Of a stretch of DNA of 64,000 nt, positions 7,910 to 42,325 are shown in pieces. The DNA is from Candidatus Sumerlaeota bacterium (lineage in GTDB: Bacteria; Sumerlaeota; Sumerlaeia; Sumerlaeales; Sumerlaeaceae), in contig JAAZBM010000001.1 in NCBI GenBank assembly GCA_012513815.1, forward strand, positions 1-64,000, read 5' to 3'. Below the pieces are notes generated by a model. That model saw only the letters and a list, made by a program, of their open reading frames with translations. It ran no database searches and was not told the DNA's origin. The position numbers and the translations under genes were made by a program. How positions within the stretch are numbered: the first letter of the stretch is position 1; every line of letters begins with the position of its first letter.

Positions 7910-8131
7910 ATGAAAAAAGGCATTCATCCAAAGCATGTTATGGCGACAGTCACCTGTGCTTGTGGCAATACATTCAAGGTAGGTTCAGTCAAGTCGGAAT
8001 ACAAAGTCGAAATTTGCTCAGCATGCCACCCCTACTTCACAGGACAGCAACGCTTTGTCGACACCGCCGGACGTATTGATAAGTTCCGTCAGCGTTATGC
8101 CAAAAACGAAGAGAAAAAAGCCGACAAGTAA
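7910..8131 (+). CDS. rpmE: 50S ribosomal protein L31 (zinc-binding form)
   Basis: This 73-residue protein has the full L31 pattern: MKKGIHPKH at the start, the cysteines of TCACGNTF and [11 protein letters not shown] making the CxC...CxxC zinc site, [13 protein letters not shown], and a basic tail. The cysteines mark it as the C+ form that stores zinc. GGAGAAAC precedes the ATG at good spacing. It is monocistronic with a perfect hairpin terminator. Confidence 0.97.
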
Positions 8132-8160
8132 TAGCTCTTTTTAATAGAATAAAGCATTAT

Positions 8161-8199
8161 CCTCCGAGACACATAAACACGGGTCTCGGAGGATTTTTT
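8161..8199 (+). terminator. rpmE intrinsic terminator
   Basis: CCTCCGAGAC (8161-8170) pairs perfectly with GTCTCGGAGG (8183-8192), followed by ATTTTTT. Confidence 0.9.
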
Positions 8200-8297
8200 A
8201 GTTGTTATGGGATAAAGAGACAAGACAGACAAGCCTCAATAATATATAAGGTAATCACGGCGTAAAGGAAAAAAATGATTTTTTTTGAAAAAAAAGC

Positions 8298-8327
8298 TTG
8301 CATAATCGGCGCCGTTTGTGCTATAAC
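8298..8327 (+). promoter_or_regulatory. Promoter for the 1,617-residue secreted protein
   Basis: TTGCAT (8298-8303), an 18-bp spacer and TATAAC (8322-8327) follow an A/T-tract resembling an UP element. The implied leader is about 300 nt. Confidence 0.5.
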
Positions 8328-8404
8328 ATCTTTAATAGGTAACAAAAGGGTACAATTATCGCAAGACTATTGTATCAAATTGTGCTTAGTTTTTGGGTCG
8401 TGTT

Positions 8405-8514
8405 GCTTGGGACATCACAACACAAAAACATAGTTAAGACGCCACGCTAAGAGGATGCTTGGGACATCTGATTTGCACGGCAAACGCTGATTCTGACTGA
8501 GGATGCTTGGGACA
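8405..8514 (+). repeat. Three direct repeats GCTTGGGACA in the leader
   Basis: GCTTGGGACA occurs at 8405-8414, 8457-8466 and 8505-8514. Copies 2 and 3 share the longer GAGGATGCTTGGGACA. Start-to-start spacing is 52 and 48 bp. They lie in the 445-bp gap between the rpmE terminator and the ATG at 8637, which holds no ORF. Confidence 0.8.
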
Positions 8515-8636
8515 CCAAGGACAGAAAAAGCAAAAGGGTCTGAGGCATGTGATTGCCGTGGAAATCCACGCGCAAGACTTGCCAATGACACATATAATGA
8601 AGAGTTATTATAACCAAAAGGAGAACAATTGAGAAA

Positions 8637-11600
8637 ATGTTCAGAAGTTATAAATCTATTTTAGCCTTGGGAGCTGCTGTTGCTCTCGCTGGTTCCGCCA
8701 GCGCGACAGCGACCGAATGGGCTGATTTGCAGACGACAGATTTGAGCGCCGCTGGCGTTCGTATGCTCGCCGCGAATCAGGCTCTCTATGTTGCCAGTAG
8801 CGGCAATAAGAATATTGCCAAATACGCTATTGGTGCTGATGGCAATGTTGATGGGACAACATTCACTGTCTCTTATACAGCAACTGCCAAAATGGGTAAT
8901 GGTTGGCAAGGTACCGCCATTTCCAAAGACGGCGCTGCCCTATATATGGCAGCTGATGGTGCTTCGATCAGCGATGCTGACCCCGCCATTATCGTGAAGC
9001 TGAATGCCGCTGATGGTTCTGTGGACGAATCGTTCGCAATCGACGGTACAATGAACAATGTCGGTCGTCGTGGGGCGCTTGCGTCCTTGAGCGATGGTCG
9101 TCTTTTGACATTCGGTCTCGGTCACGCTGCCGCGCCTGAATATGTTCCTTTCTATAACATCGTCAGCGCAGACGGTATGACAAGCAGCGCTGCTGTTTAC
9201 TTCGACCAGAATTGCGCCAACGGTGGTAGCTATGTGCTCGATGATGGAACAACCGTTGCCGGTACAATTCGTAGCGCTGCTACCAAGTTTGGTGCCGACG
9301 CTGCAAGTGACAAGGTTTTCTTCGTCAAGGGTGGCACCGTTCTTGAGATGACAGCAACTGACGGCGACTGGTCCTCGACCCCCACCGTCAAGATGTTCTT
9401 TGATAAAGAACTGGGTACATTGCCCTGGCAAGTCAACACACAGATTACTTATGACGCAGTCTCCGACATGCTCTATTTTGCAGTGCCCGGCAAGCTCTAC
9501 AGCATCAACGCTTCAGATGCTGCCGATTACTCACTTCTTGCCATCGGTGGCTCGCAGTACACTGTGGCTCAGACATGGATTGGTGGCAAGACCTTCGCCT
9601 ATGTCAATGGTGCTAACGTCTTTCAAATGAACGCCTATGCCGAAAAAGCTAAAGGCTCCGTCAAGGCAACCTTCACCGGTGTAACTGAAGGCGCATGGAA
9701 ACTCAATGAGGCTGGCGCATGGAACGCAAGTGGCGACCAAATCGACAACCTCTATATTGGTTCCTATGATGTTATCTTTAAAGATGTTGAAGGCTACTTC
9801 ACACCCGCGACACAGACCGTGACCGTCGAAGCCGGTGCAGTCGCCGAAGCCGCCGGTGAGTATGTTAAAGTCAGCGACCTTAAAGTGACCCTGACCGGTC
9901 CCGCCGCTGGCGCACAGTGGAGCATCGACAAAGGCGCAACATGGAACGAGAGTGGCGCGACCGTTTCCAACCTTACGGCTGGCAAACAGACCATCACGTT
10001 CAAAGCCGTTGAAGGTTGGGCCATACCCGCCGACTTCGAACAAGTGACGCTCGAAACCGGTAGCACCACCGAAAAAACATATGCTTACACCGAGAAACCT
10101 GCGGCAGCCGCTTATCAGTGGACAAAGGCCGGTTCATACGACCTTAGCGATTTGACGACAACCGCCGCGGCAATCAGCCGTATGACAACCGATAATGACG
10201 GTAACCTATACTTCAACCTTGGTATAGCCAAATTCGTCTTCCGTGTTGCCGCAGCCGAAGCGACCGCCCCCACCACAGGTACAGTCTTGGCAACCGGCAC
10301 AGCCGGTACCTATGGCTTCCTTGGTATGGACTTCTTCCCCAATGGTGGCGTTGCTTTCGAAAACAACAAGGATATGTTCAAATACAATAATGATGGCACC
10401 CTTGCTGAAGAATGGGGTACCACGGGTACATTCACCTTTTCCGAAGGTCGTCAGGCAATTGCTTGCTATGCTGATGGTACAATCCTTGGCATCCCCGCAG
10501 CCGGTGGCACCTATGCGTTGAGAGTCGCTGCAGATGGTAAGACCGCTGACACAAAAGTCACAGGTTCCGGACCCACCACGTGGAGCAACCGTGACGCTTG
10601 CGGTCGTGGCAATGGTACAATCTATGTTTGCAACGGCTACAAACGCATCGATAAGGTTGTTGTCGTGGATAACGCCATTTACTCCTCAGTGAATGGTTTC
10701 GTTCCCGCGAAGAGCACAGCCTACAATGGTGGTGTTTTCTATGACGCTCTTTACAACGATGTCAACCTTGCCGTTGGCGACGAAGGTAAAGTTTACATCA
10801 GCGATGCCGATACTGGTGCGCTGAAACAAACAATCGTTATTAGTGGCGCACCTTCCGATACAGCTGTTGCTAACGAAACACTTTTTGTCTGCAAGACCAA
10901 CAGAACCGTTGACTATTTCGTCAAGGGCACAAAGTTCACTGTTAACCTGGTTTGCGCCGACGAAGTTAATGCTCCTCAGTTCAGCATTGACGGTGGAGCA
11001 ACTTGGAAAAATTCCGGTGAATTCTTTATCCTTGATCCTGACAGCACAACCGTCACGGTTTCCTTCAAACCGGTTCCCGGTTGGAATACACCTGCCTCGC
11101 AAGACGTCGCAGTTAACGAAGAAGTTGCTGATGTCGCTCTCACAGCTGAATATTGGCAGCCGACCGTCACAGCGACCGCTACCGAAGGTGGTACAATCAC
11201 CCCCGCTGGTGATATCACCACAACAGTTGGCGAAAGCTTGACCTTCACAATGGCAGCTGACGATTTCTACAACTACACAAGCCTTGAAGTTGATGGCGCC
11301 CCGGTTCTTCCGAACCCCGAAACCTTCACCTTCGAGAACCTGACAGAAGACCACACAATCAACGCAGTCTTCACGCGTCAGGTTGCCGGTTCGCTCACCG
11401 TGAACCTTGATCCTGCCACAAGCACATCTTGGAGCATTGACGGTACGAATTGGAACGCCAGTGGCGCAACCCTTGAGGCACTTCCCGCCGGTAACTATGT
11501 CATTAACTTCAGATCACTTTCCGGTTACAGAGCACCCTCTGCAATCGCGCTGACAATGACTGAAGGCGTGTCAGTTACAAAGAGCGCCGCCTATACACCG

Positions 11601-13490
11601 GTTGCTGGTTTTGTTGACTGGATGAAGTACAAAGACGTCGTTGTTGCGCCTGAGTCAATTTCTCAATCTCAGGCATATCGCACCAACTGGAGTCGTCTTG
11701 ATTTCGATAAAGCCCATAATGTCTATATTGGTGGTTATGGTGCCTTCGGTGATGCCCCCTATGGTATGGGTAGCGGTGGTGTTGTTACCTTCCCCTTCAA
11801 CAACGCGACAGTTCCTGCAGCCTCCGACATCAAAGTCGCGGTTCAGAGCTTCTTCGGTCTGTGGCCTGCGGAGTGGACAGCCGGTGGCACAAACGGTATG
11901 ATTGGACTTACTCCGGCAATTGACGGTGGTATGCTCCTTCATCAGGATAGTGGCTACAACTTCTCCTTCAAGACCAAAGAAGATGGAACAACTGACACAG
12001 CATTTGGTACAGATGGTGTCCGTCCGACAACCAACCGTTACGCGTCCGTTGTGACATTCCCCAATGGTGACTTCGGCCTTGTCTCCTTGGTAATTCCTGG
12101 TAACATGACGATTATTGACGGAGTTACAGGCGCAGAAAAAGGCTCTGTTTCTCTTGCAGGCTTCACTCAGCACCTTCGTAGTGCCTGTGCTGCCACAACC
12201 GATACAGTGTTTATCCTTGATAACGCTTACAAGCGCATCATGAAGCTCGTCTTTGATCCTGTGACCTACAATGTCATTCAGGCATCTGAGCTTTGCACAC
12301 CTGTAAATGGTGGTCAACAAGCAGGTATCTACTACATTGCCAAAGACAACACGGTTGTTTATACGACCAATCTTGCCGGTGGTAAATTTATTCAGGTCTT
12401 CGGAGCTGACTCCGGTCAACTCATTCAGACTTTTGCCGGCGACTATTGCGATATCGCTTACACCAACACAGAGAAGGGTGACTTCCTTGTTGGTTGCAGC
12501 TATAGCAACACGACACTCGGTGTGTACAAACGCGCTGTTGCCTTCACAGTCAACATGCCCGGTGCACCTGAAGGCGCTCAGTGGAGCCCCGATGGTGGTA
12601 CAACATGGTTTGCCGCCGGTGCGGGCTTTGCCCCTCAAGCCGCCGACAACACCATCCTCTTTAAGGATGTCGAAGGTTACTTCACACCCGCCTCTGTGGT
12701 CGTTCCTGAAGCCGAACGTGAATACACGCTCGCCGAAGGTACCTATGTCGCGAAGGTCGGTGATATCACAGTCAACCTCGCACCTGAAGGTGCCGCACCT
12801 CTTGGTGGTTGGATGCTCGTCAATAGCGCAATGTCTCCGACAGCCATCTCCTCCTGGAACGCCTCTGGCGCAACAGAAGCTGATGTTCCGTTCGGTCAGT
12901 ACACCGTTACCTTCAAGGATGTTGCTGGCTACCAGAAGCCCGATGATATGGCCGTTGACCTCACAACAACCGAAGGTCTCGTCCTGACCGGTACCTACAG
13001 GCAAGTTGGTACATTGACAGTCGTCATCGACGGTCCTGCGGAAGCCAAGTGGATAGTCAGTGGTATCGATGGTCTCTTCAACAGTGGTCAAACCCTTAAG
13101 CTTGAAGCCGGCGAATACACCGTGTCCTTCACGGAAGTCGCCGATTGGGTAAAACCCGCTGACATGACTGTAACCATCACTGGTAACAACGACTCCAAGA
13201 CACTTGTCGGTGTTTACGACGAGAGCACAGGTTCCATCAGCGTCTCCATCGAACCGGCTGCTGCCGTTTCCGAAGGCGCAAAGTGGAGCGTCGATGGTGG
13301 AGCGACATGGAACGAGTCCGGTGCGACAGTTGCCGACCTCGATCCGGATGAATACACCGTTATCTTCTCTGACCTCGGTATGGTTCGCTGGGCTTCGCCT
13401 GCGCCCATTAAGGTCACCGTCTCGAGCGGACAGACTGCAACAGCAACCGGTACATACTCCCGCTACGCGGAAGTCTGGGAACTCTTCTAA
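8637..13490 (+). CDS. Giant secreted protein with beta-propeller-like blocks and PEGA-like repeats
   Basis: This is a 1,617-residue protein with signal peptide MFRSYKSILALGAAVALAGS ending near SASA. AGGAG is 13 nt upstream. Three blocks rich in G, D and aromatic residues (about 30-335, 490-780 and 1005-1300) read like NHL/quinoprotein-type propeller sheets with lines such as DGNLYFNLGIAKFVF. Between and after them are about eight 70-75-residue units of the form (G)A-x-W-S-x-D-G-G-x-T-W-x-x-SG ... F-K-x-V-x-G-Y/W-x-x-P, resembling PEGA domains. There is also one InlB/bacterial-repeat-like unit with GGTITPAGDITTTVGESL. No catalytic motif or sorting anchor was found, and it ends EVWELF. It is probably exported to the surface; its function is unknown. 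Confidence 0.85.
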   Translation: MFRSYKSILALGAAVALAGSASATATEWADLQTTDLSAAGVRMLAANQALYVASSGNKNIAKYAIGADGNVDGTTFTVSYTATAKMGNGWQGTAISKDGAALYMAADGASISDADPAIIVKLNAADGSVDESFAIDGTMNNVGRRGALASLSDGRLLTFGLGHAAAPEYVPFYNIVSADGMTSSAAVYFDQNCANGGSYVLDDGTTVAGTIRSAATKFGADAASDKVFFVKGGTVLEMTATDGDWSSTPTVKMFFDKELGTLPWQVNTQITYDAVSDMLYFAVPGKLYSINASDAADYSLLAIGGSQYTVAQTWIGGKTFAYVNGANVFQMNAYAEKAKGSVKATFTGVTEGAWKLNEAGAWNASGDQIDNLYIGSYDVIFKDVEGYFTPATQTVTVEAGAVAEAAGEYVKVSDLKVTLTGPAAGAQWSIDKGATWNESGATVSNLTAGKQTITFKAVEGWAIPADFEQVTLETGSTTEKTYAYTEKPAAAAYQWTKAGSYDLSDLTTTAAAISRMTTDNDGNLYFNLGIAKFVFRVAAAEATAPTTGTVLATGTAGTYGFLGMDFFPNGGVAFENNKDMFKYNNDGTLAEEWGTTGTFTFSEGRQAIACYADGTILGIPAAGGTYALRVAADGKTADTKVTGSGPTTWSNRDACGRGNGTIYVCNGYKRIDKVVVVDNAIYSSVNGFVPAKSTAYNGGVFYDALYNDVNLAVGDEGKVYISDADTGALKQTIVISGAPSDTAVANETLFVCKTNRTVDYFVKGTKFTVNLVCADEVNAPQFSIDGGATWKNSGEFFILDPDSTTVTVSFKPVPGWNTPASQDVAVNEEVADVALTAEYWQPTVTATATEGGTITPAGDITTTVGESLTFTMAADDFYNYTSLEVDGAPVLPNPETFTFENLTEDHTINAVFTRQVAGSLTVNLDPATSTSWSIDGTNWNASGATLEALPAGNYVINFRSLSGYRAPSAIALTMTEGVSVTKSAAYTPVAGFVDWMKYKDVVVAPESISQSQAYRTNWSRLDFDKAHNVYIGGYGAFGDAPYGMGSGGVVTFPFNNATVPAASDIKVAVQSFFGLWPAEWTAGGTNGMIGLTPAIDGGMLLHQDSGYNFSFKTKEDGTTDTAFGTDGVRPTTNRYASVVTFPNGDFGLVSLVIPGNMTIIDGVTGAEKGSVSLAGFTQHLRSACAATTDTVFILDNAYKRIMKLVFDPVTYNVIQASELCTPVNGGQQAGIYYIAKDNTVVYTTNLAGGKFIQVFGADSGQLIQTFAGDYCDIAYTNTEKGDFLVGCSYSNTTLGVYKRAVAFTVNMPGAPEGAQWSPDGGTTWFAAGAGFAPQAADNTILFKDVEGYFTPASVVVPEAEREYTLAEGTYVAKVGDITVNLAPEGAAPLGGWMLVNSAMSPTAISSWNASGATEADVPFGQYTVTFKDVAGYQKPDDMAVDLTTTEGLVLTGTYRQVGTLTVVIDGPAEAKWIVSGIDGLFNSGQTLKLEAGEYTVSFTEVADWVKPADMTVTITGNNDSKTLVGVYDESTGSISVSIEPAAAVSEGAKWSVDGGATWNESGATVADLDPDEYTVIFSDLGMVRWASPAPIKVTVSSGQTATATGTYSRYAEVWELF

Positions 13491-14300: not shown

Positions 14301-15209
14301 TCAGAGCAAAATTCCGAGAATATACAGAAGGCCGAAGATGCTGTTGGTCTGCGCCACCGCCCGCATCGCAGGCATCATCTCGGCGGGCGTTTGGCCGTCG
14401 CGGCGGAAAGCCCGTGTCGCGTTCCACGCCGGGAGCAGTGCCGCTAAACACAGCAGGCTCCAACCGCCTATAATGCCCGATAGCACCAACCCAATGACGA
14501 ATATATGTGTCGCCACAAAAACGCCTGCAAGGTACCAAACAGCGTGTTTATGCCCCAAAAGAATCACAAGAGTATGCCGTCCGTGCGCTTGGTCGGCCAC
14601 ACGGTCGCGGATGTTGTTTGCGGTCAGTATCTGAGCGATGTGTGCCGCCACGGGCAACGACACCACGATGACGCTCCATGGGACTTTGCCCGACAGCACG
14701 AAGCTCGTAATGGCCGCGATGCCTGTCCCCATCGACAAGCCCGCGATAGGTTCGCCGAACGGCGTTGCCGCGATGGGCAGCGGTCCGCCCGTGTATAGGT
14801 AGCCGATCAGCATGAAGACGCCGCCAACCGGAATCAGCAGCCAGCTAGTTGCGGCGCAAATCCCGATGCCCAGCGTGCCCGCCACTGCGTAGCACAACAG
14901 CGCCAGCGTCAACACAAAGCGCGGCGACGCGCCGTCGCGCACAATTGTGCCTCCGATGCCAACGGACGCCGCCGTGTCCAGTCCGCGGGCGTAGTCATAG
15001 TATTCATTGAACAGGTTTGTGGCGATTTGAATCAGCAGGCTTGCCGCGAGCATTGCCGCGAGTAGCCACGGTCGGCTGCCGAGCGTTCCGGTTCGCGTCC
15101 ACACAAGGGCGACGCCGAGCATGAACGGAATGAATGTCGCGGTCAGTGAATGTGGCCGTAGCAATCGCCACCAGAAATCAGCTTTCCGTTGTGTCATTGC
15201 TGTTGTCAT
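14301..15209 (-). CDS. menA: 1,4-dihydroxy-2-naphthoate polyprenyltransferase
   Basis: This 302-residue UbiA-superfamily membrane enzyme attaches the prenyl tail in menaquinone synthesis. Both aspartate-rich prenyl-diphosphate sites are present: NLFNEYYDYARGLD early, and NNIRDRVADQAHGRHTL in the second half. The opening RPHSLTATFIPFMLG is typical of MenA. Its start overlaps the end of the methyltransferase gene by 32 bp; an in-frame ATG at 15197 is an alternative start. The overlap implies co-transcription. No other menaquinone genes are in the window. Confidence 0.92.
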   Translation of the reverse strand: MTTAMTQRKADFWWRLLRPHSLTATFIPFMLGVALVWTRTGTLGSRPWLLAAMLAASLLIQIATNLFNEYYDYARGLDTAASVGIGGTIVRDGASPRFVLTLALLCYAVAGTLGIGICAATSWLLIPVGGVFMLIGYLYTGGPLPIAATPFGEPIAGLSMGTGIAAITSFVLSGKVPWSVIVVSLPVAAHIAQILTANNIRDRVADQAHGRHTLVILLGHKHAVWYLAGVFVATHIFVIGLVLSGIIGGWSLLCLAALLPAWNATRAFRRDGQTPAEMMPAMRAVAQTNSIFGLLYILGILL

Positions 15210-16113
15210 TGTCCGATTTGCTTTTGTGTGGCGGCGTGGTCTTGATGACCGGGTCGCGGTAAATGTAGGGCAACTTCGCCAGCGCCTCGCTCAGGCCGTT
15301 GCGCAACTCGCGGCGCTCCGTCTGCACCGACACCATGAGCGGACTATCAAGCAGATTGAACTCGAGTACACGGTTTTCGACTTCCGAGACACCGGCGCGG
15401 GTAGGGCGATACGAGACCGACTGACGCCCAAGTTGCGCCGCCACTGTCGCCGTCGTTCCATCGGTGCCGAACGGGTCAAGCACAGTTTCGCCCGCAAACG
15501 AAAACATTCGGATGAGGCGGTCAGGAATCGCGGCGGGCATCTGCGTCAAACTCGTGTGGTGGGATTCGCGCAAATACCAGTGCCCGTTGAAAAACGTCGT
15601 CCACTCCTTGCGCGTCATTCGCGACGCGTCCTTCATCTCCTTCGTGATGGGAGGCGCCTCGCCCGGTTTGCGGAAGACGAGGATGTGCGCGCAGTCAAGT
15701 TTGATGATGCCATTGCGCGGATACGGATACGACCCGGCGATGAACGTTCCCGCCGATGTCCGCTGCGGGGTGAAGCGCTGACAGACGATGCTGCCCATGA
15801 AGTCGAATCCGATTGCCTCGCAAAACCGCACAATCTCTGTGCGCGGCGATACTGCCTTAAACCGTCCGTATTCATTCTGGCGAATGAAGTGGTCGCCGGC
15901 GCATACGCACAGGCGGCAACCCTCGCGCAACACGCGCATGCACGCTGACCACGTCAGATTGAGCGTGTTGACATAGTTCTCATATGTGCCACCGGCGTCA
16001 GCGTCCTCAACAGAGTTCCACATAGGAGGCGCGGTCACGACAAGTTCGATGCTCGCGTCGCAAACTCTATGCATCAGACGGCAGTCACCGATTATTATTC
16101 GATGATTCGTCAT
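15178..16113 (-). CDS. Orphan DNA methyltransferase (beta-class, N4-cytosine/N6-adenine type)
   Basis: This is a 311-residue protein starting MTNHRIIIGDCR at 16113. Motif IV, near the N-terminus, reads VVTAPPMWN, where most relatives have SPPYW. The AdoMet-binding motif I comes late as VLDPFGTDGTTATVAAQLGR (relatives: DPF-x-GSGTT). The order catalytic region then AdoMet region marks the beta class. The C-terminal tail after about residue 285 is charged and low-complexity. No restriction endonuclease lies nearby, so it is an orphan or regulatory enzyme. The Tyr-to-Met change in the catalytic motif could lower activity. It overlaps menA. Confidence 0.8.
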   Translation of the reverse strand: MTNHRIIIGDCRLMHRVCDASIELVVTAPPMWNSVEDADAGGTYENYVNTLNLTWSACMRVLREGCRLCVCAGDHFIRQNEYGRFKAVSPRTEIVRFCEAIGFDFMGSIVCQRFTPQRTSAGTFIAGSYPYPRNGIIKLDCAHILVFRKPGEAPPITKEMKDASRMTRKEWTTFFNGHWYLRESHHTSLTQMPAAIPDRLIRMFSFAGETVLDPFGTDGTTATVAAQLGRQSVSYRPTRAGVSEVENRVLEFNLLDSPLMVSVQTERRELRNGLSEALAKLPYIYRDPVIKTTPPHKSKSDNDNSNDTTES

Positions 16114-16222
16114 ACAGGAATATGCCGTTTTGGTGTGAGGAAATTCACAAACACTTAACGCTCGACAATTGGTTTGTCCGGAAAAATTGTATTTATTTAA
16201 CACGAAATTGAAGTCAAATCAG

Positions 16223-37077: not shown

Positions 37078-40000
37078 CTACTTTGCCACAGTGCTGTAAT
37101 CGTAGTTGTCCGTCTCATCCGTTTCGGCGATGACGTCCGTGCTGTCCGCGAGAACGCCGAGGACCTGTCCGGGCTTGATGCTACCCGACAAGGAAATTCC
37201 GCGGGCTTCCTGCGGTTGGAGACCGATGCAATAGTCGCCACCCTGCAAGCTCTTGTCGCGATAGAACACGCCGGTCTTGGCCTGCATGGTGCCGACAAAT
37301 GCCTCGATCCAGAATGGGCCGGTCGCGGCGGTGCCAACATTGCGGATGGTACCGGTAACGGTTATTTTTGAGCCATCTTGCTCGAAGAACGGTCCTTCGT
37401 ACCAGACGAGATTCTGTGTGCCGGTCTTGACGGCGGGTGTCTTGAGCGAAACCTGTGTCGACGTAAACGCCATGCGGTTGTCGAGTGGTGTCATATCGCC
37501 GGGGTTGTCGGGCGCGCCATCGCGGTTGACCATCGCCACCAACGAATACAGACCGTCGCCAATCGGATTGATTTGTTTCGAGAGTGTGTATGTCTTCGTC
37601 TGTCCGATTGCCGGAGCGGTAATCTTTTCGCTCCATGTCAGGGTCACACCCGGAACGACGCTTGCGCCGCCGTCTTGCGAGGCGAACAGCTCAAGATAAA
37701 CCGGAGCGGACGGCATGACGGTTCCTTTGTTCAGAACGGTCACGGCGTAAGTCAGCTTCGAGTTGGGCGCTACCTGTGCGGGGACCTTCTGCTGGCTAGA
37801 GATCTGAACGTTGACCACAGCTAAATCGATTCCGTTGCTCTTGCCCGGAGGCAGTAGCGAGGGAACATAATACAGCTCGTAGTTGTTCGTCTTGTCGCTC
37901 TCGGAGACGATATTCGTGCTGTCAACCATCACGACTAGCGCCTTGTTCTTTGCGCCACCCGAGACGGAACCCGTCAGCGAGAAATACTGAGGGGCGTTTA
38001 CCGGCAGCGTATCAACCTTGTGCCCGGCGCCAATGGTACCCTGAATCATCACAGTGCCTTCGGCGGTCAGTGTGCCATAGAAAACCTCAATCCATGCGCC
38101 CGGCTTACCCATGGCTTCGGTGCCCTTGTTGAAGACACGACCGGTCACCGTGAGGTTGTTCGGGTTCGTCGGGTCGAAGGTCCATGCGATTTTGTCCATC
38201 GCGAGGTCGATGCTCTTGATGTTTGTGTTATGAACCGCCAGACGCTTGCCGGGGATAATCGCCCAGTTGTTAGCGTAATTCTCTTCGGCAATCGCGCCCG
38301 AGAGATTGCCACGGTTCACGCTGCCGATAAGCGTATAAACGCCATCGGGCAACGGATTCAGCGTCAGAGTATCCGGAGCGAATGTTTCCGACAAACTGCT
38401 CATTCCGGTCATGACACGATAAGAACTGGTTGCTGTGGCACCCGTCCGAACTTGGTCAAAACCGCCGGTCTTGCTTGGGAAAACCTCGCACCAGAACGAG
38501 TCGGTGAACGGATTGGTGGTGGAGGCTGTCCACGAAAAATCAACCTTGTCGCCCGGGGTTAGAGCCTTGGCTACGCCCGCCGAGAAATCAGCGTCATCCA
38601 AAATGATGTCAAAGGCACTTGTCGTATAGTAACCTGTCGCCGCTGTCGTTGTGTCAGCGGTGATGAGAACTTGCTGATCGGATGGAGTCGTCCAACCCGA
38701 AACTTCCGCGAACGAAACTGTGTGATAACCCAAGGTCAAGTTCGCGGCGATTGTGTCGCTCTTGCGCCAGATACCACCATCAACGCGCCACATCGCGCCG
38801 TCAGTAACAGCCTCGGCCGGTGTCAGGGAAACTTGCAGAGAACCGCGGAAGTCACCGCCGGATTGCTGCCAGTTCAACAACACATTGCCTGCGCCGCAAG
38901 CTTCGTCGCAGCTCGTAACCGCGATATAATACGTCTGGTTGGCCGACGCGAAAAACTCTACCTGACTGCGGACATGGTCACTCGCGCTGTCGTCATCCTG
39001 AGCAATCGTTGCAAGATTGCTAACGATGGAGCCTTGATAGACGCCGATGCGGGTGTCAAAATCACTGCCGAGCGTATTGAAGATAACTTTGCCGCCTGCC
39101 GGAGCCGTCCACTTCCACCACACCGAGCAGGTGCCGTTGACAGGTTCGCCCTGTTCGAGCCGTGCGCCGACGTTTGTTCCTGCCGCGCTACCGGATAGCC
39201 CTTGGACTGTGATGGCATCGGCGAAATTGTCATTGTCGGGCGCATTATGTTGTGAGATATATTCGGCCGTGATTGGTTCAACGGTCATGCCGTTGGGAAC
39301 GAACAACTCGATTGCAGCGGGGGCAATCCAGTTGTTGACTGTCTTGAACTGAATTGTGTGCGTCGTATCATAAACCAGGTTTCCGATGGTTGCGCCGCTT
39401 GGCTGCCATGCTTCCGCATTCACACGCCACATGGCACCTGCGGAAATCGCGCCTGCCGGTACGATGAAGACTTGTTGCGAGAAACGCTGATTCCGAATGT
39501 AATACGCGTTGCCCCAGAAGTCTTTTCCGGCCAAAATCGAAATCTGTTGCGTCGGCGGGGTTATCCACCCTGTCAAGTTCTGGAAAATAATCTGATACGT
39601 GCCCACGGACAGCTTCAGAACTTCGCCGTCGTTATGCCAAGTTTTGCCACCGTCAAGAGACCATTGCGCTCCCTCGGGCGGAGCATATTGAGTATGATTA
39701 TCATCCGCGGCCGTTTGGTCATCCGAGAACAGCGAAACATGGAGATTTCCGGATGATTCGACCATGGGAACATAAGCGGCTTCGGTTTCCTTTGTTTTGC
39801 CGAGATCAGGAACCAGTACTGCCATGGACGCGGGCTTTGTCCAGTCTTGGATATCCTTGAAGACAACAGCGTACATTCCGCCGGTGAGACCTTGAATTGT
39901 CTCGCCACTGTAGTACCATGTAAGTCCGTTATCGATACTCCATGCGGCGCCATCTTGGTTTGCCTCGTCAGGAGTAATCGTCATCTTCAGACCATTGTTG

Positions 40001-42090
40001 CCTGCGGTGCTGACATAAGTTCCCACACCTGTGACCATCTTGCCACGCTGTACGACCGTCAAAATCGGATCCGGAGTTGTATAGCCCTCGATGCCATCTT
40101 TGAAAATGACAGGATAGGGCCCCATCGTCAAGCCGGTGATGACGTCGCCACTGTTGTGCCAAGTAGCGCCCCTGTCAATTGACCACATCGCCCCTTTGTC
40201 CGAAGCGTCTGTCGGACGAATAATAACCTGCAAGTCGCCTTTTCCCATCTCTTGCGTATAAACGCCTGTGACTGTTTCCGTTTTATCAACATCGATTGTC
40301 ACGGTTTGAGTGATAGGCGTGAAGTAGCCTTCGACATCCTTGAACTGAATTGTGTGCGGACCAACAGGAAGTTCGTATGTGTCGTCCGAATCCATCCATT
40401 CGCCACCGTCGACGCGCCACTTGGCGCCAATGGCGATAGCCATGTTGGGCTGAAGGACAACCTTGAGTGTCCCGGAGTACAGCCCTTCGCGGAAATAGGG
40501 GTATGTTTCATTTGCGCTGACGTCCCAGATGTCGACGAAATCCCAACCGGCATAGGTCGACATTTGCTTCATTTCTGCGGTTGTTTTGGCATAGTCGGGA
40601 GTGGTGCCCGCGGAGGTCGCGACACCCGTTGCTTCTTTGTCCCAATAGCTGTCTTGGACGGTGCCTGTGGACACTGCCACAAGCCCACCACGTGTGGTGG
40701 CGGTCACCTGTCCCGCTGCATAACACTTGACCACGCCGGCCGAGACGATTTCGCCCGCAAAGCCTGCGCTAAGCGACACGCTCGAAACATCACCCAAGGC
40801 ATAGCAGTTCTCAACGGTGCCCATCTCAAGCACTGCCGCAAAACCGCCAGCATTACTCGTTGCCTCGACATTACCGTTCGCGCCACTGAGGCTAATGCCG
40901 CCATTGCTGATGCCTACGAAACCACCGATGTCGTTGACACCAACAACCGGCGCGAAAACTTCTGTCGTCATGACGTAGCCACTGTTCATACCAATCGCGC
41001 CACCGGTGACGCTTGTGCCGATGATTGACGAGGTCGCGTTAACCATGCTCGAATTGATGATACCCTTGTTCTCACCAAGCAACCCACCGGTATTCTCCTT
41101 GCCGACGACTTCGGCATTATTGGAAACCATCGTGTTCATGATATAACCGCTTGTGTTGTTGATACCTGCGATGGCGCCTGTGTCGAACGCCCCGTGTACC
41201 GTATTCTGGGCATAATAGCAATTGCTTATAACACCATCGTTCATACCCACAAGACCACCGACATGCGTCGCGCTCACGGCATCAATTTCCGCAATCGAAT
41301 GGCTACCGACGATGTTGGAATCGGGCGAGTTGTAGCCCACAAGACCACCAATCATGGTCGTGTCTTCGATCGCGCTTGACCGTGCCGCGCCTGTGGAGTA
41401 GCTCTGGCTGATGATTGAAGTATCGTTCCATCCAACAAGACCGCCAACATAGTTGTTACCATCAACCTTAGAGGTCGAAAAACAGTTGTTCATCTCCGTC
41501 TTGTATTCGTAACCGACTAAGCCGCCGACAAAATCATGACCGGCGACATCTGCCGATGTCCAGCAATTCACAAAAGTGCTTTGATTGTTATAACCAATAA
41601 GAGTTCCAACGTAATGGCTACCAATCACGTTGCCGTTTACGACACCAAAGTCTTTGACCTCGGCGCCAAGCGTGTAACCAAACAGGCCAACATAGTCTGT
41701 ATCGGCGCGCTCAATCGACAATCCTGTCATCTTGTAGCTGCTACCGATGAAGTGACCCATGAACGGATTCTCGGCGGTTCCGATGGGCGTAAAACCTTCC
41801 ATCGTGCCGGTTGTCGTTCCCTCATCATTCCACTGACCGGTGCTACTTGCATTGATATCATTCTTTACCTTGTAATAGACATTACGCGTGGCGTTGCCGT
41901 CGACATTACAAACCTCGGACAGCCAAGCAAAATGACCAATCTCGGTGAACTGATAAGGATTATCCTCAGAACCATCACCGACCGTCGGGGCGATCGCATA
42001 TTGCGCGTAACCCATGGTCGCGCAGCCGACCAACCCGACCATATAAGCGATGCGCGCTCCAATGCCGGTGCCAAGAAGATATTGTTTCAT
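37078..42090 (-). CDS. Giant secreted GLUG / PEGA-like / PPC / CARDB protein
   Basis: This 1,670-residue protein starts at ATG 42090, with CAGGAGAG just upstream. The signal peptide MKQYLLGTGIGARIAYMVGL ends near YAQ. Domains in order: a start module shared with the 22712 protein; about ten GLUG units (VGGLVGYE, VGGLVGWN, VGGLVGMN, TGGLLGEN and others) to about residue 490; and five PEGA-like units with GAKWRVDGGEW, GAMWSIDRGATW, GAAWSIDNGLTW, GAQWSLDGGKTW and GAMWRVNAEAW. A PPC-like domain follows (VWWKWTAPAGGKVIFNTLGS ... DFDTRIGVY), then one more PEGA-like unit, then three or four CARDB/adhesion Ig-like modules (VTGRVFNKGTEA, VSESDKTNNYEL, VIAETDETDNYDY). No enzyme motif or membrane anchor was found. 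The architecture suggests a surface binding or matrix protein. Confidence 0.87.
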   Translation of the reverse strand: MKQYLLGTGIGARIAYMVGLVGCATMGYAQYAIAPTVGDGSEDNPYQFTEIGHFAWLSEVCNVDGNATRNVYYKVKNDINASSTGQWNDEGTTTGTMEGFTPIGTAENPFMGHFIGSSYKMTGLSIERADTDYVGLFGYTLGAEVKDFGVVNGNVIGSHYVGTLIGYNNQSTFVNCWTSADVAGHDFVGGLVGYEYKTEMNNCFSTSKVDGNNYVGGLVGWNDTSIISQSYSTGAARSSAIEDTTMIGGLVGYNSPDSNIVGSHSIAEIDAVSATHVGGLVGMNDGVISNCYYAQNTVHGAFDTGAIAGINNTSGYIMNTMVSNNAEVVGKENTGGLLGENKGIINSSMVNATSSIIGTSVTGGAIGMNSGYVMTTEVFAPVVGVNDIGGFVGISNGGISLSGANGNVEATSNAGGFAAVLEMGTVENCYALGDVSSVSLSAGFAGEIVSAGVVKCYAAGQVTATTRGGLVAVSTGTVQDSYWDKEATGVATSAGTTPDYAKTTAEMKQMSTYAGWDFVDIWDVSANETYPYFREGLYSGTLKVVLQPNMAIAIGAKWRVDGGEWMDSDDTYELPVGPHTIQFKDVEGYFTPITQTVTIDVDKTETVTGVYTQEMGKGDLQVIIRPTDASDKGAMWSIDRGATWHNSGDVITGLTMGPYPVIFKDGIEGYTTPDPILTVVQRGKMVTGVGTYVSTAGNNGLKMTITPDEANQDGAAWSIDNGLTWYYSGETIQGLTGGMYAVVFKDIQDWTKPASMAVLVPDLGKTKETEAAYVPMVESSGNLHVSLFSDDQTAADDNHTQYAPPEGAQWSLDGGKTWHNDGEVLKLSVGTYQIIFQNLTGWITPPTQQISILAGKDFWGNAYYIRNQRFSQQVFIVPAGAISAGAMWRVNAEAWQPSGATIGNLVYDTTHTIQFKTVNNWIAPAAIELFVPNGMTVEPITAEYISQHNAPDNDNFADAITVQGLSGSAAGTNVGARLEQGEPVNGTCSVWWKWTAPAGGKVIFNTLGSDFDTRIGVYQGSIVSNLATIAQDDDSASDHVRSQVEFFASANQTYYIAVTSCDEACGAGNVLLNWQQSGGDFRGSLQVSLTPAEAVTDGAMWRVDGGIWRKSDTIAANLTLGYHTVSFAEVSGWTTPSDQQVLITADTTTAATGYYTTSAFDIILDDADFSAGVAKALTPGDKVDFSWTASTTNPFTDSFWCEVFPSKTGGFDQVRTGATATSSYRVMTGMSSLSETFAPDTLTLNPLPDGVYTLIGSVNRGNLSGAIAEENYANNWAIIPGKRLAVHNTNIKSIDLAMDKIAWTFDPTNPNNLTVTGRVFNKGTEAMGKPGAWIEVFYGTLTAEGTVMIQGTIGAGHKVDTLPVNAPQYFSLTGSVSGGAKNKALVVMVDSTNIVSESDKTNNYELYYVPSLLPPGKSNGIDLAVVNVQISSQQKVPAQVAPNSKLTYAVTVLNKGTVMPSAPVYLELFASQDGGASVVPGVTLTWSEKITAPAIGQTKTYTLSKQINPIGDGLYSLVAMVNRDGAPDNPGDMTPLDNRMAFTSTQVSLKTPAVKTGTQNLVWYEGPFFEQDGSKITVTGTIRNVGTAATGPFWIEAFVGTMQAKTGVFYRDKSLQGGDYCIGLQPQEARGISLSGSIKPGQVLGVLADSTDVIAETDETDNYDYSTVAK

Positions 42091-42325
42091 AGAACTCTCC
42101 TGCTTTTCTCCTGAGAAAACCACAGTCTCAGATATTGTTTTTTTATTTTTCTTCTCTACTCAAAATAGTAAAGCAATGCACAAAAACAACACACAACAAA
42201 AGCGCAACAACAAGTGTTAAGTTTTTGAGCATACTTGCCTAATAATAATATATTAGCAGTTGGGCCGTTTTCATACAACTAAAAAAACACAAAAAACAAA
42301 AAAACATCGTTTTTGGCAAAGTACA

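Follow-up and report, generated by a model that had tools for sequence, protein, structure and literature searches.

The 1,617-residue protein gene at 8637-13490 of the window (the whole stretch of 64,000 nucleotides of DNA that was analysed) is preceded by a predicted 5' untranslated leader of about 300 nt (8334-8636, forward strand), which has an unusual folding energy, contains three exact copies of an 11-base word, lies behind a promoter block that recurs at a paralogous gene and lacks relatives in the genomes searched. Our tentative interpretation is a structured 5' untranslated leader specific to this lineage and serving a large surface protein, with repeats that derive from local duplication and play at most a secondary part. 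As no relative was found, it is most likely a private mRNA leader and not a new control system of general reach; the leader is an orphan, and the repeat within it is real. If the leader stabilises or tunes its mRNA, it adds one more structured leader on a surface-protein gene, and if the threefold word is a binding site, it would indicate that surface proteins have a so far unrecognised regulator that binds RNA or DNA.

Predicted promoter and predicted folding of the leader

Upstream of the leader lies a small gene (7910-8131), which from its sequence we take to encode ribosomal protein L31. It is followed by a terminator-like hairpin (8159-8200, forward strand) with 12-bp arms (8159-8170 and 8183-8194) that are 100% complementary and a subsequent TTTTTT; the terminator scan did not list this hairpin because its 12-nt loop exceeds the limits of the scan. 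Further downstream, an A/T-rich block with a predicted promoter (8268-8327, forward strand) contains TTGCAT (8298-8303) and TATAAC (8322-8327) separated by 18 bp, with a TG before the second hexamer (TGC-TATAAC). The pair was not listed by the consensus scan and matches 8 of the 12 consensus bases by our own count. Judged by these bases, a promoter at 8298-8327 is plausible, and transcription from it would be expected to start near 8334.

The nearest paralog, whose open frame on contig C3 spans 5,523 codons, has the block too. The local alignment score of the two blocks was 43, against 20.8 +/- 3.4 for shuffled sequences (0 of 300 as high), and the alignable part consists of AAAAAAATGATTTT, an A-run and CTTG(A)CA. 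Past the promoter block the two leaders share nothing, the local score of 16 being equalled by 250 of 300 shuffles. A search with the pattern ATGATTTT-TTGNNA-GCTATA matched only the C3 paralog and carries little weight, since the pattern is too strict even for the window's own promoter, which escaped it through a larger spacing or different bases. The shared block, together with the terminator-like hairpin upstream, supports the proposal of the first-pass annotation that a long leader stands here behind a promoter of its own.

Folding predictions gave -88.4 kcal/mol for 8334-8660 (z -3.55; none of 100 shuffles reached this value) and -81.5 for 8334-8620, where none of 200 shuffles was as low (z -3.98; z -5.26 with 60 other shuffles). 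Among 150 random windows of the leader's length taken from the 64 kb, 149 fold less well than the leader, the single window below it scoring -6.4, and when the words were kept fixed and the rest was shuffled, 2 of 400 controls folded as well. Strong folding is not unique to the leader, as two of ten upstream regions of other surface genes reached z -3.8 and -4.3 (the others ranged from -2.4 to 0.3); these two regions may hold terminators. Nor is a structured leader a rule in this family, since the leader of the C3 paralog, behind the same type of promoter, folds no better than its shuffles (z -0.2, and -1.1 for a longer stretch).

The strongest-folding sub-regions, 8334-8380 (z -4.43) and 8540-8620 (z -4.35), contain no repeat copy, and those around copies 1 and 2 fold unremarkably (z -0.53 for 8380-8440 and -0.12 for 8440-8500); the repeats are thus not the source of the unusual energy. 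The first sub-region holds a predicted hairpin (8349-8376, forward strand) with an 8-bp stem, a 2x2 internal loop and a GCAA tetraloop, ahead of which about 15 nt, counted from the predicted start, are single-stranded. Two further hairpins are predicted at 8540-8612 (forward strand), between copy 3 and the ribosome-binding site. The leader RNA would accordingly present a chain of hairpins that begins near its 5' end and is followed by an A-rich ribosome-binding site (GGAG and the ATG start, 8620-8639, forward strand), and its most likely work would be to shield the long mRNA from decay initiated at the 5' end. In E. coli and B. subtilis, protection of mRNA by leaders and hairpins at the 5' end is established (PMC3997798). 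The stabilising leaders of ompA in E. coli and of aprE and ermC in Bacillus resemble the present one in a hairpin near the 5' end, which is predicted here, and those of ompA and aprE also in an open ribosome-binding site ahead of a gene for a secreted or surface protein (PMC3997798). The leader studied here, a putative stabilising one, differs from them in its length of about 300 nt, its several hairpins and its threefold internal word, and has no sequence relation to them.

The threefold word and the search for relatives

The decamer that had been described as occurring three times at intervals of 48-52 bp is indeed present in three forward-strand copies of GCTTGGGACA (8405-8414, 8457-8466 and 8505-8514), with start-to-start distances of 52 and then 48 bp. 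A T precedes every copy, so the shared word is 11 bases long (TGCTTGGGACA, forward strand, 8404-8414, 8456-8466 and 8504-8514 for copies 1, 2 and 3). Copies 2 and 3 have the 16 bases GAGGATGCTTGGGACA in common (8451-8466 and 8499-8514), as had been noted before, and copies 1 and 2 the 13 bases TGCTTGGGACATC. This sharing beyond the word runs in different directions for the two pairs, which fits partial duplications, and the three copies would most likely have been born of short local duplication within the leader. The flanks between the copies have diverged past recognition, while the 11-mer is exact in all three; selection on the word could have kept it so, which leaves room for a binding role.

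Triples of 9-, 10- or 11-mers within 160 bp were absent from 1.92 Mb of shuffled window (block-wise dinucleotide shuffles), and among 5000 shuffles of the leader, one contained a 9-mer of any kind in three copies. Real sequence of the same genome, sampled over 195,788 bases that comprise the window and seven further stretches picked for their surface genes, carries a 10-mer triple at five other merged places; such triples therefore occur elsewhere in real DNA, although they were unseen in shuffles. At three of the five the spacings are multiples of 3 (57/57, 78/81 and 78/81); of these, the two tested both lie inside open frames, one of 171 codons and one of 410. The remaining two are short-spaced and fall in frames of 57 and 42 codons. 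The threefold cluster is well beyond the random model, but this genome is not poor in local repeats as such.

The 98 other genomes searched gave only short scattered matches and no related leader. At E <= 1 the leader matched in 55 of 99 genomes (own included), elsewhere in pieces of at most about 42 nt, and the best outside match (39 nt, E 2.1e-4, query 309-345) covers the A-rich region by the start codon, not the repeats. Two copies of the word at 30-60 bp are absent from 38 other genomes of the class. In public collections, where the window's own and very near genomes may be missing, the word pair was found in 9 genome and 3 viral stretches; inspection of their 150-nt flanks by eye suggests that these are unrelated, being mostly perfect tandem repeats or coding DNA, and we rejected them as relatives. 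With regard to a multi-copy mobile or repeat element, the genome assembly (1,882,275 bases in 17 contigs, 66% complete) contains no second copy of the leader. Searches of Rfam 15 returned no match for the leader region 8200-8700 up to E = 5, and over the window one tRNA and nothing else at the gathering threshold. The earlier statement that no known riboswitch is recognisable is thereby supported, and a known riboswitch or RNA family was rejected on the absent match. Literature searches found nothing on this leader, and those papers listed for the decamer (10 of 100) are unrelated by title.

That every search left leader and words unique to this genome would also be expected if the repeats were a functionless product of recent local duplication and the leader folded well by chance. 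Such an origin is conceivable, if rather doubtful: it agrees with copies that have no common structure and with a spacing out of helical phase, but neutral origin would not favour an exact 11-mer amid diverged flanks, and the folding energy of the leader is unusual.

Possible roles of the word in RNA and DNA

The first-pass annotation had suggested that the repeats might be duplicated RNA structures. The unusually good folding of the leader agrees with this; the copies, however, stand in three different contexts. Copy 1 is partly open amid competing folds, copy 2 places CTTGGGA in a predicted 7-nt loop on a 5-bp stem, and copy 3 is mostly paired, its CTTGG being predicted to pair with CCAAG and GACA to form the loop. 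An anticodon-like 7-nt loop on a 5-bp stem is not predicted in each copy, as the closing-pair probability of the CUUGGGA loop is 0.17 in copy 1, 0.98 in copy 2 and 0.06 in copy 3. The summed loop probability lies above that of all 400 controls in which the words were fixed and the rest was shuffled, mostly through copy 2; copy 2 was found in such a loop above 0.4 in 24 of the 400.

The anticodon loop of the genome's tRNA-Pro(UGG) reads TTTGGGA from its sequence, and the predicted copy 2 loop differs from it in the first base and also in the stems; the resemblance of the copy 2 arm to an anticodon arm is a lead only. The loop and its summed probability would suit three RNA sites for a trans-acting factor (an RNA-binding protein or a small RNA), possibly with CUUGGGA as a mimic of the tRNA-Pro(UGG) anticodon loop. 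We consider this unlikely, given that the loop is firm in copy 2 only, that its first base and its stems depart from the tRNA, that the gene is no synthetase and that the leader has no tRNA match. Moreover, neither CsrA (PF02599) nor Hfq (PF17209) gave a match at E <= 0.1 in the genome, a weak negative at 66% completeness. A remnant of tRNA-Pro was rejected on the same missing tRNA match, and the two tRNA-Pro genes detected in the genome differ. In E. coli, the leader mRNA at the thrS operator imitates the anticodon arm of a tRNA. Copy 2 is alike in its 5-bp stem and 7-nt tRNA-Pro(UGG)-like loop, whereas here the gene encodes no synthetase, one of the three copies folds in this way and the loop is not identical. 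With leaders bound by CsrA the present one shares several GGA words, one of them in a predicted hairpin loop; the words presumably fit the CsrA consensus poorly. The earlier proposal that a protein binds the DNA or RNA gained no support beyond the repeat itself.

An exact repeated word in intergenic DNA directly past a promoter could likewise form a DNA operator with three transcription-factor sites, which we hold to be quite improbable. The sites would lie some 70-180 bp past the expected start, TGCTTGGGACA is not palindromic and has no exact copy elsewhere outside open frames in the 66% complete genome, and the distances of 52 and 48 bp correspond to 4.95 and 4.57 helical turns, so the sites are not on one face. 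The regular spacing reported for the repeats consequently holds only roughly, the copies being out of helical phase. The decamer occurs seven times in the genome, against two occurrences of the reversed control, and the 12-mer ATGCTTGGGACA with one mismatch allowed gave 15 matches against 4 for its control. The four exact copies of the decamer outside the leader are each single and located within open frames of at least 140 codons. Its presence upstream of other surface genes, which had been put forward as a check, did not materialise: upstream of 11 other surface-type genes no match to the word was better than 3 mismatches, the best having 3 or 4, the same as in shuffles. Since every other exact copy stands alone within an open frame and the 11 upstream regions lack the word, a regulon is unsupported, and use of the word as a motif across the genome is not supported. 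A random spread of the decamer had been named as an argument against a role; it applies to a regulon, for which the four single copies in open frames count, and not to the local cluster.

A new class of cis-regulatory RNA, in which three UGCUUGGGACA words in changing structures would be read in turn by a factor (perhaps one of tRNA-Pro-like loops) that sets the output of the surface protein, and in which copy 3 would switch from a buried to a loop state and back, is a long shot. Control of main-ORF translation by three upstream small ORFs is the least credible, for although start-Leu-Gly-Thr is read at all three copies (MLGT...; starts at 8403, 8455 and 8503) and every frame ends ahead of the main start, copy 1 has a TTG start and no ATG, the codon scores (-0.20, 0.04 and -0.27) are, taken together, nearer to out-of-frame (-0.42 +/- 0.21) than to in-frame values (0.24 +/- 0.11), and GAGG directly abuts the ATG with zero SD spacing, so that translated small ORFs with spaced ribosome-binding sites were rejected.

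The surface protein gene and its neighbours

The open frame for the 1,617-residue protein downstream of the repeats (8637-13490, forward strand) begins at 8637, in accordance with the first reading, and encodes an N-terminal signal-like sequence. The gap between GGAG and ATG is 13 nt, longer than usual, and the frame is open further upstream. The product would be a large and probably abundant surface protein. It has no Pfam match over the curated cut-off, and no full-length homologue was found in the class (39 genomes, own included); matches at E <= 1e-10 occurred in 5 of the 39, own included, and outside the own genome they cover only C-terminal stretches.

Several other large ORFs of the genome contain repeats of the 1,617-residue protein as well. 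Very large secreted-looking ORFs of 1,400 to 5,500 codons are numerous in this genome (e.g. 37078-42123 of the window, reverse strand, and L092-L098), linked with the 1,617-residue protein by short repeats of the W-S-x-D-G-G-x-T-W type, and few such large ORFs are seen among the remaining 38 genomes of the class. Starts and upstream stretches that are nearly identical recur on contigs C8 and C12 (the L097 start MRFSFIYAFVMM at two places, and the L093 start MRFSFIYAFVILF), which suggests recent gene duplication. A few genes downstream of the leader and its gene, a DNA methylase of the N6_N4_Mtase family (E 2.4e-22) is encoded at 15178-16203 on the reverse strand.
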